From Clostridia bacterium (lineage in GTDB: Bacteria > Bacillota > Clostridia > UBA1381), in the NCBI GenBank assembly GCA_017443895.1, contig JAFSXU010000044.1, positions 1 to 40,694 on the forward strand: 40,694 nucleotides of DNA, in the 5' to 3' direction. Each line of letters starts with the position of its first letter. Within the stretch, counting starts at the first letter, position 1. Made by a program: the position numbers and the translations under genes. Of this stretch, positions 1 to 40,694 are shown in pieces. The notes beneath the pieces are model-generated. The model had not been told where the DNA came from and searched no databases. It was given only the letters and a program-made list of their open reading frames with translations.

Positions 1-66
1 GGTCAGAATATTAGTGTCTCCAAATTCCATAACTTCCATTTCGGGTGTTGTATATCTCTCTTTCAT
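1..66 (-). CDS. Small peptide of the YxTPxxExxEF family, 3' end cut by window edge
   Basis: Twenty-two codons are visible (MKERYTTPEMEVMEF then GDTNILT) before the window ends. The ATG overlaps the stop of the secreted protein upstream by one base (TAATG), and a strong GGAGGTGAT ribosome binding site lies inside the last codons of that gene, so translation is very probably coupled. The N-terminus matches the complete 57-residue peptide encoded at 39456-39629 (Y-x-T-P-x-x-E-x-x-E-F followed by an acidic stretch and I-hydrophobic-T), which also follows a secreted-protein gene. No signal peptide or membrane segment is seen. Function is unknown to me. The reading frame and start are well supported; family membership rests on about 20 residues. 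Confidence 0.7.
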   Translation of the reverse strand, partial: MKERYTTPEMEVMEFGDTNILT

Positions 67-1502
67 TACTTATCACCTCCGGGTGTATAATCCGTAAATT
101 TCCGTAACCAGTTTATCTTGTTTGATTTAATCGGCGACCACATTGTACCGCTTGCGGTTGTTACATATCCTACGGCATAGTAAGAGCCATCGGTTGATGT
201 ACCCTGTGGAATTCCTACAATATCGCCATGGAATACCTTGACATTACCCGATTTCTCAACCGCTTCTCCTGTCTCTGCATCTTCAATGGTAACACCATCT
301 AAAGTAGCACTTGTTTTGATGTATTTTATTCCATATGCTGTAACATAATCATCTGTTTCAACCTTAAACAAATATCTCATCATACCGTAGTCTGTATCAT
401 TTGCGGTATAATAACCTGCGTCTGTATCGGTTGTCCAGTCTGTTGCAAAAAGCTGATACATACCTGATGTGACTGTAAGTTCTGTATCTCTTCCGTCATA
501 TGTGTTATTTTTAATGCTGTATGGACTGCCGTCCGTTACTCCGTCAAACTTTACAAAATCGTTATCTGCACCTTTATAATCTATAATTTTATTATCCTCA
601 ACTATAACATTTGCATCACCCATTGCTGTTGCTCTTATAAATCTTTCCTTCGCTCCGTCTGAGGTGTTTCCTACGATTTTAATAATGCCTGAATATTGAC
701 CGCCACTTGCAGAAAGAAGTATATTATGCATTGCTGTATTGTTTATTGTATTTCCCTCGATTGTTAAATTATTTGTCGGTTTGAGTTCTATGAATTGATA
801 TCCGCCATTAAAAGTACAATCCTTTACTGTTATATTATCCAACGAGTACCTGATGGTATATTCTGTTGGGTCTTCTGAGTTTTTCAATGTGTATGTGGCT
901 TCTTCATTTGGATTAACTGTCCTATGTATCAGTTTCACTTGACCGGTTTCATCGTTTACAGTGCAATTTTTAACAGTAAGTCCATCTACTTTGATACTAT
1001 TATCTAAATTCAATATGCTTGTCTTACCGTCTGACCCATTATCTCCGGTAAAGGTAACTCCGTCTATAACAACATTTTTAAGCTCAACTGCACTGCGCAT
1101 TTGACTATATTTCGCCGTCTGAGAATGTATCGAGCCTTGGTAATCAATGTATATGCCGGCTTCTATTTTTATTGCGCCAACTGTTGCACCTGTAGCGCCC
1201 TTGATTGTCATATTCTCAAATACGGACAGAAAGTGATTGTTACCATAGTTCTCAGCCCTGTTAAAAGTGACCTTTGTTGTAGTAGATGTATTTTCCTCTA
1301 TTGGGCGAAGATATACTAATCCATAGTCTTTATTTTCTGCAAGCTGTATCGTTGTTCCCGCTGTAAAATTATCCAAAGCAGCCTGCAACTCTGCCTGTGA
1401 ACTAACATTTACAACATTTTCCTCTGCCATTGCAGGCACGCTTATCAATCCCATGCACATTGCAAGGACTGCAAGCAATGATATAAGTTTTTTGCTTTTC
1501 AT
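66..1502 (-). CDS. Secreted right-handed beta-helix-like protein
   Basis: A 478-residue exported protein. The chosen ATG at 1502 has a GAAAGGA ribosome binding site and starts a clear signal peptide (MKSKKLISLLAVLAMCMG, cleavage after AMA near residue 26). An in-frame upstream start at 1580 has no good binding site and would bury the signal. The mature N-terminus (VNVSSQAELQAALDNF, then TIQLAENKDY) is the opening seen in pectate-lyase-like and polymorphic surface beta-helix proteins, and the body has short beta-strand repeats such as 'VDGLTVKNCTVND', 'LDNITVKDCTFNG' and 'LTIEGNTINNT'. I see no SLH, sortase or dockerin signal and no catalytic signature. About 85 C-terminal residues look like a separate beta domain. 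The likely role is a surface or extracellular polysaccharide-interacting protein; enzymatic activity is not established. Confidence 0.8.
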   Translation of the reverse strand: MKSKKLISLLAVLAMCMGLISVPAMAEENVVNVSSQAELQAALDNFTAGTTIQLAENKDYGLVYLRPIEENTSTTTKVTFNRAENYGNNHFLSVFENMTIKGATGATVGAIKIEAGIYIDYQGSIHSQTAKYSQMRSAVELKNVVIDGVTFTGDNGSDGKTSILNLDNSIKVDGLTVKNCTVNDETGQVKLIHRTVNPNEEATYTLKNSEDPTEYTIRYSLDNITVKDCTFNGGYQFIELKPTNNLTIEGNTINNTAMHNILLSASGGQYSGIIKIVGNTSDGAKERFIRATAMGDANVIVEDNKIIDYKGADNDFVKFDGVTDGSPYSIKNNTYDGRDTELTVTSGMYQLFATDWTTDTDAGYYTANDTDYGMMRYLFKVETDDYVTAYGIKYIKTSATLDGVTIEDAETGEAVEKSGNVKVFHGDIVGIPQGTSTDGSYYAVGYVTTASGTMWSPIKSNKINWLRKFTDYTPGGDK

Positions 1503-24345: not shown

Positions 24346-27300
24346 TCATATTAAAATCCATGTATCAAACCATTTTAAGAATGTATTTACATAATCGGGG
24401 TTAGTCGGCTTTCCCGAAAGCACGGGATAAAACATCACAAACAGTAAAATCACCAAGCCAACATATACGCCCGATACAATGTATACCGCTTTTTTGTTTT
24501 TCGCCTCGTCATACGCCATTTTTATGCTATAGCCTATCATCAGCACTATAAACGGCACCGTAGGGAAATAATGGTATATAAATGTAAGCCGTTCAACCCC
24601 AACCCAAGGCAGAAGCTGGGCAAGGTATGCAATACATAAAAATATAGCTGTTTTATTGCGCTTTGTTATCCCCTCTGTTACCATAAGGAAGAAGGCAGGA
24701 ATACCAAGCCACCATACAAACGGGTTGCCGAATGAGGAGATACCCTCCTTTAAGCCGTTTTCAAGTGTTCCCGAATAGTACCAAATAGGCCGTTTTATAA
24801 TTATCCATTCATACCACTTTGATGAGAACGGATGCGTTGAGCCAAGCACGGTTTTACCGTGATAGGTAAGCATGGAATCCTGATTGTCAATAATCGTCTT
24901 AAATCCGTATGCCCCGTCCGTCATAAGATACGGAATATACGATGCGATATAGATTAAAATAGGCACTATAACAAAGAATACCACACACCAGCCGACCGTT
25001 CTTAAAAAGCACGGATAAAATTTGTCGATAATATCCTTATGCTCCATTCCGTCAGTTATACCGTCGGGATTTTTAAGTGCATAAGCATATTCGCGGTATC
25101 TTCTAATCATAGTTATTGCAAATATAATGCCAAGTCCTGCGCCTGCATAAATCCCCGTCCATTTTGATGCAATTCCAAGCCCCATTGCAATACCACAAAA
25201 CGCAAGCGGTTTTAAGGTTTTTATAAGCGGTGTATCGTAAAAGCTAAGCTGAGTGTATTCGTACATAAACAGATACATCAGCATTATAAAGAAGGTGACA
25301 TACACATCTATTGTTGCAATCCTTGTCTGGGCAAAATGCATAAAATCAAATGTGAATATCAGGCATACAAGCAGGGCAAAAACCGAGTGTTTTGTAATTC
25401 GCTTTGCGAATATGAATATTATCGGGATCATGAATATTCCAAACAGTGTTCCCACTATTCGCCAGCCAAACGGAGTCATACCGAATACCATAATTCCAAA
25501 CGACATTAAAACCTTGCCAAGCGGTGGGTGTGTCCATTCATAAACGCTTAAATGATGTATAAACTCATATGCGGTCCGCGCATGGTATATCTCATCAAAG
25601 TATGTGCCGTTTTTAAATGTTGCACGCTCTGCCACCATATCCTGTTCATCAAACAATTCAGCATTTGTATACGATAACGGTGCTATCGTGTTATTATCCG
25701 TATCGGCAATTCCAAGCTCTTCTATATAGAGTGCATCGGAAATTGTGGATAAATAAATTTTTGATACGGTATTGTCAATTTGTATACTGTTCCAGCAAAA
25801 TACGGAGCCTTTTGTAATATCGCTCATGTATACAGGCTTATTTTCGCTGTTTATGGCAAGCACCGTAAGCGGTCTGTCCGAGGCGTTTAGCTCCCTTGCG
25901 CCGAGGAATACCTTTAAATCGGATATTTCATAATCCTTATCCAAAACCGCACCGGAAGATACAAGCGTTACGCCGTTTTTAGGTGCTTCTGACTCCTGCT
26001 CGTCAAATAATGCATCGGTGTTGTTTTTGCTTCTGTTTTGAGGTACAATGCTGTTTCCCGTGCCGTCAGTTACTCGTGCCTCATATATCGGCAAAGGCGA
26101 ATTTGTGGCGGTAATGGTTAAATATTTTATATCCGCGTTAATGTCCACGCTTATCCATGAATTTTTTGCGCCCGAAGATAAAAGCAGTGTATCACATAAA
26201 ACATCTGAGCTTTGTGAGTAGCCTATTGCAAGCTGTCTGTCCTTAGATAAATCATCACCAATATAAAGGCTTAGGGATTTTACAGTTTCGGTGTTTGCAA
26301 ATTCAAGCCTTGATGCGCTTTGTGTTAATTTTACCTCGCTCTGTGGAGCTTTTGTATCGCCCAAATTATATATTGCAACCGCACCGTATACCGCCATTAC
26401 GGCAATGATTGAAATTATATCAAACCGCACAAGAGGTATGGGCATTTTACTTCTTTGTATTTTTATCGGCTTTTTTGCCTTTTCCACTACCGCCTTTGTT
26501 TTTATAGGCGCTTTTTCTATGCTGTCATTGCAAAGCCTGTGAGATACAAAAAGCATATATATAAACGCAAGAATGTTTATAGCCGATAAAATTCTCACAT
26601 CTATGCTGAACGCATATTTATTTATATCCGTCTGATATATAAACAGCACCCATGCATAGCTTACAAACTGGACTATGCTTACTGCAATATATGAAAAATA
26701 CGCATGAATATCCCTTGTTTCAATAAAAGTTAAAAGCAGGAAAATCATCACAGGGAACGCATACCGCTCGTGCATTTTTATTGACAGTATATATGTTGAA
26801 AATGCAAGCAATGCACCCACAAAGTAGTATTTTGCAGGGGTTTTGCTCTTAAAGAACACATATGCACAGTATAGGACAATAAGAACAAGCATAATATATC
26901 CAAAAACCGTGCCAAATGTATTTAAACCATGCCAGTTAAGTCCGAAAAGTCCCCATATATTAAAGGCGTTTATTGTAAAATACTGATATTCCTCGCCTAT
27001 TGCTTTTGTGTATTGACCGATTACCTCAAAAAATCCAAACGGCAACGATACCAATACCATAAACAAAATTGCTAAAATACCTATGCCGAGGCTTTTTAAA
27101 AGCTCACGGCTTTTAAATTCGGGGTAAATGTATTGCTCGATTATTGCAAATATCAAGATAGGCGCATATATAAATGCCTGCGGTTTTAAAAGTATGCAGA
27201 TTGCAAACACAAAATATGAAAGCTCTGTTTTCTTGCTTGCAATAAGCCAAACCATAACCATAATTGCAAGGGTGTATACAGAATCGACCTGCCCCCAGAG

Positions 27301-27801
27301 CGCACTGTCGCAGATTACGGCAGGGTTAAAAAGGTATAGAGCGCCAAGCATTGCGCTTATGCCGTTTGAAAACTTTTTGTTTGCGATTTTATATATCAAA
27401 CACCCCGATATTAAATCACAGATTATTGCAGGTAGCTTTACAAGCAGGTAATAACCCTTGCCCGATATGTTAAATAAATGCTTTATCGCACCGATAACAT
27501 AGAGGATATACATATATCCGGGCGGATAATCGGTAAATCCCTCGACCTTGTAGAAATTGGGTATGCCGTTTTCAAATACGGAGCTTGCCCAAGCCGTAAA
27601 ACAGCTTATGTCCGTATCATGACCTTTGTATACAAATCCTAAAATTACACGGAGTATAAACCCTGCCATAACCAATAATATAAGGATAAAATTATCAGAT
27701 TGATGTATTTTGTTTTTTCCAAACTGCGGAAGCAGGTAGTATTCCCACGCCGAATACCCCAAAACCGCACATATAATACTTACCGTGATTATTCCAATCA
27801 T
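24346..27801 (-). CDS. Double GT-C glycosyltransferase (PMT-type C-terminal half)
   Basis: A 1151-residue membrane protein built of two polyprenyl-phosphate-sugar-dependent GT-C modules. Module 1 (about 1-430) has many helices and an acidic first loop 'GHDTDISCFTAWA' (D62, D64). After a linker and one helix (460-480) comes an extracytoplasmic beta-rich region (482-735) made of two related units, each ending L-F-D-E-Q (598-602 and 716-720). Module 2 starts with F735-D-E737 in 'GTYFDEIYHARTAYE' and 'THPPLGKVLMSFG', hallmarks of protein O-mannosyltransferases. It likely adds sugars to exported proteins or surface glycans. GGAGG upstream supports ATG 27801; a good promoter precedes it. It ends 12 bp before fumA. 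Confidence 0.88.
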   Translation of the reverse strand: MIGIITVSIICAVLGYSAWEYYLLPQFGKNKIHQSDNFILILLVMAGFILRVILGFVYKGHDTDISCFTAWASSVFENGIPNFYKVEGFTDYPPGYMYILYVIGAIKHLFNISGKGYYLLVKLPAIICDLISGCLIYKIANKKFSNGISAMLGALYLFNPAVICDSALWGQVDSVYTLAIMVMVWLIASKKTELSYFVFAICILLKPQAFIYAPILIFAIIEQYIYPEFKSRELLKSLGIGILAILFMVLVSLPFGFFEVIGQYTKAIGEEYQYFTINAFNIWGLFGLNWHGLNTFGTVFGYIMLVLIVLYCAYVFFKSKTPAKYYFVGALLAFSTYILSIKMHERYAFPVMIFLLLTFIETRDIHAYFSYIAVSIVQFVSYAWVLFIYQTDINKYAFSIDVRILSAINILAFIYMLFVSHRLCNDSIEKAPIKTKAVVEKAKKPIKIQRSKMPIPLVRFDIISIIAVMAVYGAVAIYNLGDTKAPQSEVKLTQSASRLEFANTETVKSLSLYIGDDLSKDRQLAIGYSQSSDVLCDTLLLSSGAKNSWISVDINADIKYLTITATNSPLPIYEARVTDGTGNSIVPQNRSKNNTDALFDEQESEAPKNGVTLVSSGAVLDKDYEISDLKVFLGARELNASDRPLTVLAINSENKPVYMSDITKGSVFCWNSIQIDNTVSKIYLSTISDALYIEELGIADTDNNTIAPLSYTNAELFDEQDMVAERATFKNGTYFDEIYHARTAYEFIHHLSVYEWTHPPLGKVLMSFGIMVFGMTPFGWRIVGTLFGIFMIPIIFIFAKRITKHSVFALLVCLIFTFDFMHFAQTRIATIDVYVTFFIMLMYLFMYEYTQLSFYDTPLIKTLKPLAFCGIAMGLGIASKWTGIYAGAGLGIIFAITMIRRYREYAYALKNPDGITDGMEHKDIIDKFYPCFLRTVGWCVVFFVIVPILIYIASYIPYLMTDGAYGFKTIIDNQDSMLTYHGKTVLGSTHPFSSKWYEWIIIKRPIWYYSGTLENGLKEGISSFGNPFVWWLGIPAFFLMVTEGITKRNKTAIFLCIAYLAQLLPWVGVERLTFIYHYFPTVPFIVLMIGYSIKMAYDEAKNKKAVYIVSGVYVGLVILLFVMFYPVLSGKPTNPDYVNTFLKWFDTWILI

Positions 27802-27836
27802 ATTTGCCTCCAAAGGTTTATCATTTCTAAAATATT

Positions 27837-39356: not shown

Positions 39357-39370
39357 ATTGCAAAGCAAAA

Positions 39371-39425
39371 GGGGCTGTTGCAAATGAGCGAGAAACTTTC
39401 GCTCATTTGCACAGCCCCTATTTTG
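39371..39425. terminator. Long bidirectional terminator
   Basis: The stem is GGGGCTGT/ACAGCCCC plus, after a one-base bulge, GCAAATGAGCGA/TCGCTCATTTGC (20 bp in all), with loop GAAACTT. T-rich flanks lie on both strands. It separates the convergent nucleotidase-like gene and the small-peptide gene. Confidence 0.92.
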
Positions 39426-39455: not shown

Positions 39456-39629
39456 TTAGTTTAAAAAATCTGAAAGCTCGTTATAGTTTACCTCTGCCGT
39501 TACGGAAGGCTTACCGTTGTTATTATTCCCGTCAGCCCAGCTTTTAAGTGCTGTGCTTACCGATGCGGTAATAATGTCTTCACCTTTGAACTCAGAAATT
39601 TCTATACTTGGAGTTATATATTTAGTCAT
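39456..39629 (-). CDS. Small peptide of the YxTPxxExxEF family, 57 aa
   Basis: A complete 57-residue peptide with AAAGGAGG nine bases upstream of the ATG. The N-terminus (MTKYITPSIEISEF, then KGEDIITAS) matches the partial peptide at the left window edge (Y-x-T-P-x-x-E-x-x-E-F, then an acidic residue and I-hydrophobic-T). The middle is Asn/Gly-rich and the C-terminus ends 'NYNELSDFLN'. No signal peptide, membrane segment or cysteine is present. It starts 14 bp after the stop of the tandem-module protein, so the two genes are co-transcribed and end at a strong terminator. Function is unknown; the repeated linkage to secreted-protein genes suggests a role in their export, folding or regulation, which is inference. 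Confidence 0.8.
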   Translation of the reverse strand: MTKYITPSIEISEFKGEDIITASVSTALKSWADGNNNNGKPSVTAEVNYNELSDFLN

Positions 39630-39643
39630 TGCTATTTCCTCCT

Positions 39644-40694
39644 TTATTCCGCTAAAGTATCATTCGATAACCACATTGACACACCTGCAAACTCAGCAGG
39701 AATACCAATAAGGCCTACACCGACAAATGCTTTGCCCTCTTCGCCTAAAGAAACCTCAGAGGAGATAAGCTTATCTAACGCATAACCTTTATATGTTGTT
39801 GTACCGTCCTTTGTAAAGCCAAACTTGACAGTCTTATATGCTGTAGGATCAATAGAATCACCGCTTATAAACGCCATTGAAACCTTGCCGTCAACTACTT
39901 CGCTTGTGAAGCCCTCTAATGCAGTCATTTCTATGTCTTCAGCCGGCTCGTCTACAATCTCAGTAAGCTCAAATCCACCGTTTTTAATGATGTTCTTGCT
40001 TGTTCCCTGTTTTACAAGGCTTATATCGTCTATATACCAGCCCGGTGTATCTGCATTTTCAGCTGTAAATCTTATCACATCAGCTCTTTCATCAAGCGTA
40101 ACTGTCTTTTCATATTTTGTCCATGATCCGTCTGTAGCGACTTTGGTCATACTTGCTAATGTAGATTCATTCCATAAAATGTCGGGGGCTCCCGGTGTAT
40201 AGAATACCACTTTACAGTTATCTTCAGAGTAATCTCCGGTTGACCAGAAGCTTACTGTATATGTTCCCGCAGCCTGTGCTATGTCCTGTGAAAGAATAAC
40301 CGTATTAGTATTAACTGTATCTGTGTGACGCATATGTAAGCTATGCTCGCCACTATGCGCTACATCTCCGGCAACGCACAAATACTTGTCGGCAGTCTTT
40401 TCATTACGCTTTTCACCCCAACCTGCACGGTATGCATCATATGCTGTTGTGTACTCTTCTAATGCTTTTTCTTCAAAGCCATTATTTTTGATTAAGTTCT
40501 CTGTTGTTCCCTGCTTTGTCAGGCTTATATCGTCTATATACCAACCTTTTGTCTTGCCTACACACAGGAATGTAATCGCATTGTTATCATTGCTTACAGT
40601 AATCTCTTTTGTATACTTTGTCCATATTCCGTCACTTTGTTCTTTTGTAAAGGCAGATAAATTGTGACATTGCCAATTGTTTCCATTAAGGGTA
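39644..40694 (-). CDS. Partial protein with tandem carbohydrate-binding-like modules (5' end outside window)
   Basis: The reading frame is open to the right edge (about 349 codons visible); the TTG at 40381 is not a real start, since coding continues upstream (for instance 'YRAGWGEKRNEKTADKYL'). Two copies of a beta-sandwich unit of the CBM4/9 (galactose-binding-like) type are visible. Each ends G-W-Y-I-D-D-I-S-L-x-K-Q-G-T followed by N-[LI]-I-K-N-[NG]-G-F-E, the repeats being exactly 168 codons apart. The C-terminal 95 residues form another beta-rich domain. No catalytic domain is seen in this part. It is probably a large extracellular glycan-binding protein or glycoside hydrolase whose catalytic part and signal peptide lie upstream. 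It is co-transcribed with the 57-aa peptide. Confidence 0.8.
   Translation of the reverse strand, partial: TLNGNNWQCHNLSAFTKEQSDGIWTKYTKEITVSNDNNAITFLCVGKTKGWYIDDISLTKQGTTENLIKNNGFEEKALEEYTTAYDAYRAGWGEKRNEKTADKYLCVAGDVAHSGEHSLHMRHTDTVNTNTVILSQDIAQAAGTYTVSFWSTGDYSEDNCKVVFYTPGAPDILWNESTLASMTKVATDGSWTKYEKTVTLDERADVIRFTAENADTPGWYIDDISLVKQGTSKNIIKNGGFELTEIVDEPAEDIEMTALEGFTSEVVDGKVSMAFISGDSIDPTAYKTVKFGFTKDGTTTYKGYALDKLISSEVSLGEEGKAFVGVGLIGIPAEFAGVSMWLSNDTLAE

Follow-up and report, generated by a model that had tools for sequence, protein, structure and literature searches.

The window analyzed here, a stretch of 40,694 nucleotides, is an entire contig (C19) of the 2.72-Mb clostridial genome G000, which consists of 77 contigs. 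A small peptide gene lies at each of its ends, directly downstream of the gene of a longer protein, as listed below.

1..66, minus strand: second peptide MKERYTTPEMEVMEFGDTNILT, its initial 22 residues, cut by the contig end (sequence)
66..1502, minus strand: gene of the left partner protein P0004, 478 aa counted from the Met that precedes its signal peptide, with weak similarity to NosD (beta-helix; profile scan)
73..80, minus strand: ribosome binding site GGAGGTGA of the left peptide, embedded in the 3'-terminal part of the preceding gene (sequence)
87..413, minus strand: C-terminal domain of P0004, cluster 0 (domain search)
39370..39419, minus strand: strong hairpin 3' of the 57-aa peptide gene (folding: -39.4 kcal/mol, z -6.9)
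39456..39629, minus strand: 57-aa peptide MTKYITPSIEISEFKGEDIITASVSTALKSWADGNNNNGKPSVTAEVNYNELSDFLN, a probable LPP-like precursor, one among 35 matches in the genome (sequence)
39638..39643, minus strand: AGGAGG ribosome binding site of the 57-aa peptide gene, within the 14-bp gap (sequence)
39644..40693, minus strand: 3' part of the gene of the right partner protein P0003, 349 aa visible, with a CBM_4_9-like module (PF02018 1.9e-5, just under the cut-off)
39647..39910, minus strand: C-terminal beta-rich domain of P0003, cluster 1 (domain search)

The coordinates, spacings and ribosome binding sites given for both peptides in the original prediction agreed with the sequence. The 57-aa peptide gene begins 14 bp past the upstream stop (39644 versus 39629), and the ATG of the left peptide overlaps the TAA of the preceding gene by one base, number 66 (TAATG). 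Complete 49-aa, near-identical copies of the truncated left peptide were found on contigs C52 and C76. The leader part of the 57-aa peptide is MTKYITPSIEISEFKGEDIITAS and the remainder is a variable core; it contains no Cys, and no signal peptide was recognized on it by eye. The hairpin 3' of its gene is a probable transcript end; a scan for consensus terminators listed nothing, this hairpin included. On the other side of the hairpin, a gene with a 5'-nucleotidase C-terminal domain (PF02872; 37254-39356) runs convergently with the peptide gene. Contigs C17, C19, C49, C52, C69 and C76 terminate in or beside peptide genes, the assembly having probably been broken at peptide-pair repeats that are near-identical to each other.

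Both upstream proteins had been described as large, extracellular and beta-rich. They are indeed long, and their predicted structures are all-beta at low confidence (mean pLDDT of 47.3 for the P0003 C-terminal domain and 46.3 for the left partner), values too poor for a fold search to be made from either model. P0004 has an evident signal peptide (MKSKKLISLLAVLAMCMGLISVPAMA); that of P0003 is out of view because the contig end removes the 5' end of its gene.

A peptide family encoded behind secreted-protein genes

The original prediction had counted two independent copies of the peptide. Both are real, but the number was far too low, as the family occupies 35 loci in G000. When the 57-aa peptide alone was used as query against this genome, 23 matches were obtained at E values up to 10, one of them within a long unrelated frame. 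A profile of 21 peptides, whose own rows match G000 by construction, gave 35 matches, 31 at E values of 2e-6 or lower and four between 7e-4 and 0.01; the four weak matches, which were outside the profile build, likewise lie behind signal-peptide genes (loci L117, L118 and L119). A1 took in 21 of the 22 peptides read first, and A5 took in 74 of the 86 listed leaders. The leader consensus is [YF]-x-x-P-x-[IM]-x-[IV]-x-x-F-x-x-E-[DN]-[IV]-[ILV]-T-x-S. Judged by sequence conservation, each peptide is laid out as such a leader followed by a variable core: among 117 peptides, anchored at their aromatic residue, the information content per position is 2.09 bits in the stretch 0-19 and only 0.60 bits in 20-39. 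Ser occupies position 19 in 96 of these peptides, and Cys occurs in the core of two. The leader pN/pS of 0.30 (67 pairs) was discounted as evidence, since the pairs were picked at 70% or higher amino-acid identity and this choice biases the ratio downward. No Pfam or NCBIfam model matched the peptide at E values up to 1. Across a class-wide sample of 391 genomes, 39 were found to bear the peptide, in 25 of 222 genera.

The upstream neighbor was tabulated for 34 distinct peptide sequences read in G000, with identical peptides counted once (so that C17 and C19, each with a truncated copy, contribute one) and an ORF taken as partner if it was on the same strand and at least 90 aa long. Four lie at contig edges, and all 30 that had room sit behind such an ORF, with gaps of -8 to +32 bp. 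The start of the upstream ORF was visible for 21 of them, and all 21 passed our signal-peptide rule, which is home-made and permissive (positive for 77 of the 228 genes of the G000 regions); a signal-peptide gene was found in the same position for 19 of 205 other genes of these regions. Eight peptide-rich relatives had 94 listed peptide matches, from which 60 regions were fetched; these represent four relatives and three loci of a fifth. Their 62 peptides had an upstream ORF in 57 cases, with the start visible in 52 and the rule passed in 50. Similar patterns were observed among 23 peptides of low-copy genomes (upstream ORF in 19, start visible in 16, rule passed in 13), two of which belong to the radical SAM locus L081, and among 20 peptides from 20 regions of other families of the class (upstream ORF in 18, rule passed in 16). 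The enrichment next to signal-peptide genes anticipated in the original prediction was thus recovered, and the opposite outcome, a motif occurring beside random genes, does not hold in G000, in its relatives or in other families. We consider it strongly supported that the association of this peptide family with secreted proteins is real. No report of such a gene linkage was found in the open-licence literature searched.

The partner proteins themselves are varied. Ten scanned partners in G000 carried F5/8 type C, laminin-G-like, Big_5, GLUG or InlB-type repeat domains, or nothing known. The C-termini of 106 partners grouped into several clusters, and a profile comparison of the seven largest showed clusters 0 and 3 to be clearly related and the others unrelated or weakly so. 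A universal C-terminal partner domain was therefore ruled out, and no one domain accounts for every pair. Within G000, all 15 copies of cluster 0 and all seven copies of cluster 1 are in genes with a peptide gene next downstream (one of these genes carries the domain N-terminally), counts that the profiles may favor as they were built from peptide-linked partners. Across 70 genomes of the family, cluster 0 was present in 13, every one of them peptide-positive (Fisher 0.0003). A downstream peptide was found for 36 of the 39 cluster 0 copies in this set, with gaps of up to 132 bp; one of the remaining copies is at a contig edge and two (in G006 and G029) have none. In three of the peptide-followed genes the domain is not C-terminal.

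Similarity between peptide cores in G000 was correlated with similarity between the last 130 aa of their partners (r 0.80, p 0.0003, n=29) and not with that of the partner N-terminal regions (r -0.04, n=15). The correlation held when close pairs were excluded (r 0.54, n=24) and when leader similarity was controlled for. It was also detected in four other genomes; in G015 it was weakest (r 0.30) and was lost under control for the leader (p 0.06). Domain and peptide may be functionally matched, a 3' domain-peptide cassette may have been copied behind differing N-termini, or both; co-duplication of adjacent DNA could account for the correlation.

Enzyme machinery and its co-occurrence with the peptides

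Genes for a candidate peptide-modifying machinery were found elsewhere in G000, none of them in one operon with a peptide. Contig C38 has a row of genes encoding an HprK-like kinase, a PqqD/RRE protein (PF05402 3e-12), an S26-like peptidase and an NTP_transf_5 protein (PF14907, 4e-36), and genes for a Polysacc_synt_2 protein and for a DegT aminotransferase are divergent from its kinase/RRE/peptidase operon (L145 4123-7294). On contig C60, SLH genes and a gene for a Cu_amine_oxidN1 protein accompany an HprK-like kinase, a second RRE (PF05402 1e-15) and an ABC transporter that is putatively MsbA-like by analogy with genes in loci L097 and L099. A further S26-like gene was found on contig C68. 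Both kinases have a Walker A motif, and their NCBIfam matches are weak and below the family cut-offs. Ser, His and Asp of the SpI-like peptidases of C38 and C68 were located by pattern (TIGR02228 7e-6, below the cut-off). The two RREs share an Asn/Asp pair 37 residues apart (N33/D70 in C38 and N35/D72 in C60). A search of the PDB with the C38 RRE gave no meaningful match, and the C60 RRE matched the LppB structure only at an E value of 0.13. SLH genes flank the HprK-like kinase: nine candidates chosen by eye, two at C60 and seven from six other kinase loci, were all confirmed as SLH proteins.

Peptides and machinery are closer together in some relatives. Family peptides lie inside machinery clusters at loci L097, L098 and L158, and in three genomes (G010, G041 and G054) HprK-like and S26-like genes follow those of a large secreted protein and a peptide; genes for an ABC exporter and for a nucleotidyltransferase of PF14907 accompany them in G041. 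In G054, kinase and S26/SpI-like peptidase are fused in one 365-aa frame. At L158 (7103-8182), such a fusion has a peptide gene and the gene of a secreted protein of 1100 aa as neighbors. One asnB-like gene adjoins a peptide in L088. At L098, a membrane protein between peptide and kinase (PF16192 8e-4) is weakly similar to a 1155-aa protein encoded at 24346-27813 of the window, which has domains of the PMT type (protein O-mannosyltransferase; PF16192 5e-23).

A different arrangement was observed in G030, where two tandem Cys-containing peptides (locus L081) adjoin genes for a radical SAM/SPASM maturase, an HprK-like protein and a peptidase of the S24/S26 type; TIGR04463 was the best model for the maturase (3e-35, below the cut-off). 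Peptides with the family leader that are Cys-containing or Gly-rich were noted at L081 2630-3068 and on a kinase-found contig of Faecalibacterium prausnitzii APC923/51-1 (L235 12176-12816). Different chemistries thus seem to share one leader type.

The kinase was also used to locate 80 contigs of named genomes (rumen and gut Clostridia, Faecalibacterium prausnitzii and others). Thirty-one of these contigs carry a total of 34 peptides, 16 of them behind a signal-peptide gene, and at L225, L226 and L248 the peptide is immediately 3' of the HprK match. Among the 70 family genomes, 39 were positive for the peptide and 42 for the kinase, with 36 having both and 25 neither (Fisher 3e-10). Since genomes are not independent, the figure per genus is safer: 11 genera have both, one the peptide only, none HprK only and five neither (Fisher 0.001). 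HprK was found without the peptide in six genomes (G012, G021, G027, G031, G036 and G093) and the peptide without HprK in three. Two of the latter, G019 and G076, are less complete than the third, G078, which is 92% complete and has eight peptide matches and no HprK-like match, so that either other machinery or an assembly gap is involved there.

Relation to known systems and proposed role

The machinery recalls that of linear polyphosphorylated peptides (LPPs), described since May 2026 and defined by an RRE, an HprK-like kinase, an SpI-like peptidase, an NTP transferase and an MsbA-like exporter acting with YxxP precursors (Popov et al., Nat Commun 2026, PMC13381572). According to that paper, LPP precursors are 35-200 aa long, number one to three per cluster and have a conserved YxxP leader (consensus YxxPxVLxHQxIxFETxxS) before a variable C-terminus. 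The Pro and Tyr are held by N33 and D70 of the RRE (LppB), residues that lasso and PQQ RREs often have as well; the kinase adds several phosphates to core Ser3, the SpI-like peptidase removes the leader aided by the RRE, and the final product and biological role are stated as unknown (PMC13381572). G000 has the RRE, kinase, peptidase, NTP transferase and an ABC exporter, its peptides have YxxP, and its C38 locus, beside polysaccharide genes, recalls the capsule-linked LPP clusters of Bacilli. On the other hand, the G000-type leader continues as F-x-x-E-[DN]-I-[IL]-T-x-S where the published LPP motif has HQ-x-I-x-FET-x-x-S: neither HQ nor FET was found in any of the 117 anchored peptides, in which YxxPx[hydrophobic] and the downstream Ser are present. 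The 35 precursor loci of G000 are dispersed, whereas one to three lie inside an LPP biosynthetic cluster as described, and each peptide here trails a secreted-protein gene. They also come from Clostridia, whereas the genome mapping reported for LPPs was done on Bacilli. As the remainder of the leader and the in-cluster arrangement do not match, we term the peptides LPP-like and claim no membership of the class.

We consider it likely that the peptides are LPP-like RiPP precursors, each core forming a pair with the surface protein of the gene directly upstream; their precursor status is well supported, and the surface role is inferred. Among the roles raised in the original prediction, the YxxP leader and the presence of RRE, kinase, peptidase and exporter in the genome favor a RiPP-like precursor, and secretion adaptor and anti-aggregation chaperone found no specific support. 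Its statement that the peptides have no assigned role still stands, although LPP-type machinery has since been described (PMC13381572).

The shared leader before variable cores, the many precursors served by few enzymes and the use of the same leader in radical SAM, Cys-rich clusters such as L081 would also suit signals or antimicrobials of the RiPP type, freed as a diverse library in the manner of prochlorosins, with the secreted-protein genes merely providing co-expression. Prochlorosin precursors are likewise numerous and dispersed. They have a common leader and are served by one promiscuous enzyme, with leader and enzyme differing from those found here, and we know of no pairing of prochlorosins with secreted-protein genes. 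This explanation is nonetheless unlikely: the near-exceptionless position behind secreted proteins has no evident reason in library or bacteriocin precursors, and neither has the fact that one C-terminal domain family is confined to peptide-bearing genomes and adjoins the peptides. Close coupling and co-inheritance with the partner, together with a peptide that itself has no signal peptide, could instead point to an unmodified cytosolic helper of the secreted protein (a chaperone or translational regulator) whose leader-like motif only binds a PqqD-like adaptor. We regard such a helper as quite improbable, given that the kinase is present in 36 of the 39 peptide-bearing genomes, to which G000 adds peptidase and exporter, and that the conserved T-x-S segment suits processing more than chaperoning.

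Lasso peptide precursors are a very improbable explanation, despite several shared traits. By position counts, the peptides fit the Y/WxxPxL-type lasso leader (PMC10368454), and phosphorylated lasso peptides combine a YxxP leader with a kinase/NTP transferase set (PMC10368454, PMC7533575), the paeninodin type having a YxxP/WxxP leader, a discrete PqqD-type B1, an HprK kinase and an NTP transferase (PMC5067487, PMC7533575). However, the lasso leader peptidase B2 (PF13471, transglutaminase-like) was missing in all ten peptide-bearing genomes searched, on which ground lasso peptides were ruled out; no lasso cyclase was recognized in the loci read, and the cores, by eye, have no consistent G1/D8-9 ring pattern. 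Radical SAM Cys-rich peptides suit L081, where the peptide pair lies beside a TIGR04463/CefB/Clo7bot-type maturase and an HprK-like gene, but were rejected for the window, since its peptide has no Cys and no maturase adjoins either window peptide; the two Cys-bearing cores among 117 also set the family apart from that type. The Faecalibacterium MAM is comparable in that a gut clostridium exports a small leader-bearing product to its envelope, but in the available text it has a double-glycine leader, a PCAT transporter and no such linkage to a partner gene (PMC12184118).

For LPP-like precursors paired with surface proteins, we propose the following route. The peptide genes are placed singly behind genes of secreted or surface proteins, outside any biosynthetic cluster, each probably sharing a transcript with its partner and being translationally coupled to it. 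Tyr and Pro of the leader (approximately the 20 N-terminal residues) would dock into the PqqD/RRE proteins of C38 and C60, which would present the precursor to the HprK-like kinase and to the SpI-like leader peptidase of the signal-peptidase type. The conserved Ser of T-x-S is the likely phosphorylation site, and leader cleavage would be expected inside I/L-T-x-S. The MsbA-like ABC transporter would export the core, which the NTP transferase may have modified further beforehand, and the exported core would work with the protein from the same mRNA, most likely via the C-terminal domain of that protein. More tentatively, and we lean somewhat against it, this might amount to a clostridial, genome-wide maturation of surface proteins, in which dozens of secreted proteins would each receive their own ribosomal phosphopeptide from a shared RRE/kinase/peptidase/exporter set. 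This peptide would bind, or be attached to, the C-terminal domain of the co-translated protein, for example as a surface anchor or cap.

Gut-type clostridia thus carry up to approximately 35 scattered peptide genes, nearly always directly behind a secreted-protein gene. What is new here is the presence of dozens of precursors outside a cluster, each linked to a secreted protein, and of a C-terminal domain family confined to peptide-bearing genomes. Each of these related precursors has a secreted-protein gene of its own beside it, and particular C-terminal domains go with them, which makes the role of LPPs directly testable. The precursors of such systems may sit far from their enzymes and in tens of copies, where genome mining based on clusters would not look. 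If true, the surface-maturation reading would give LPP-type RiPPs a role at the cell surface.
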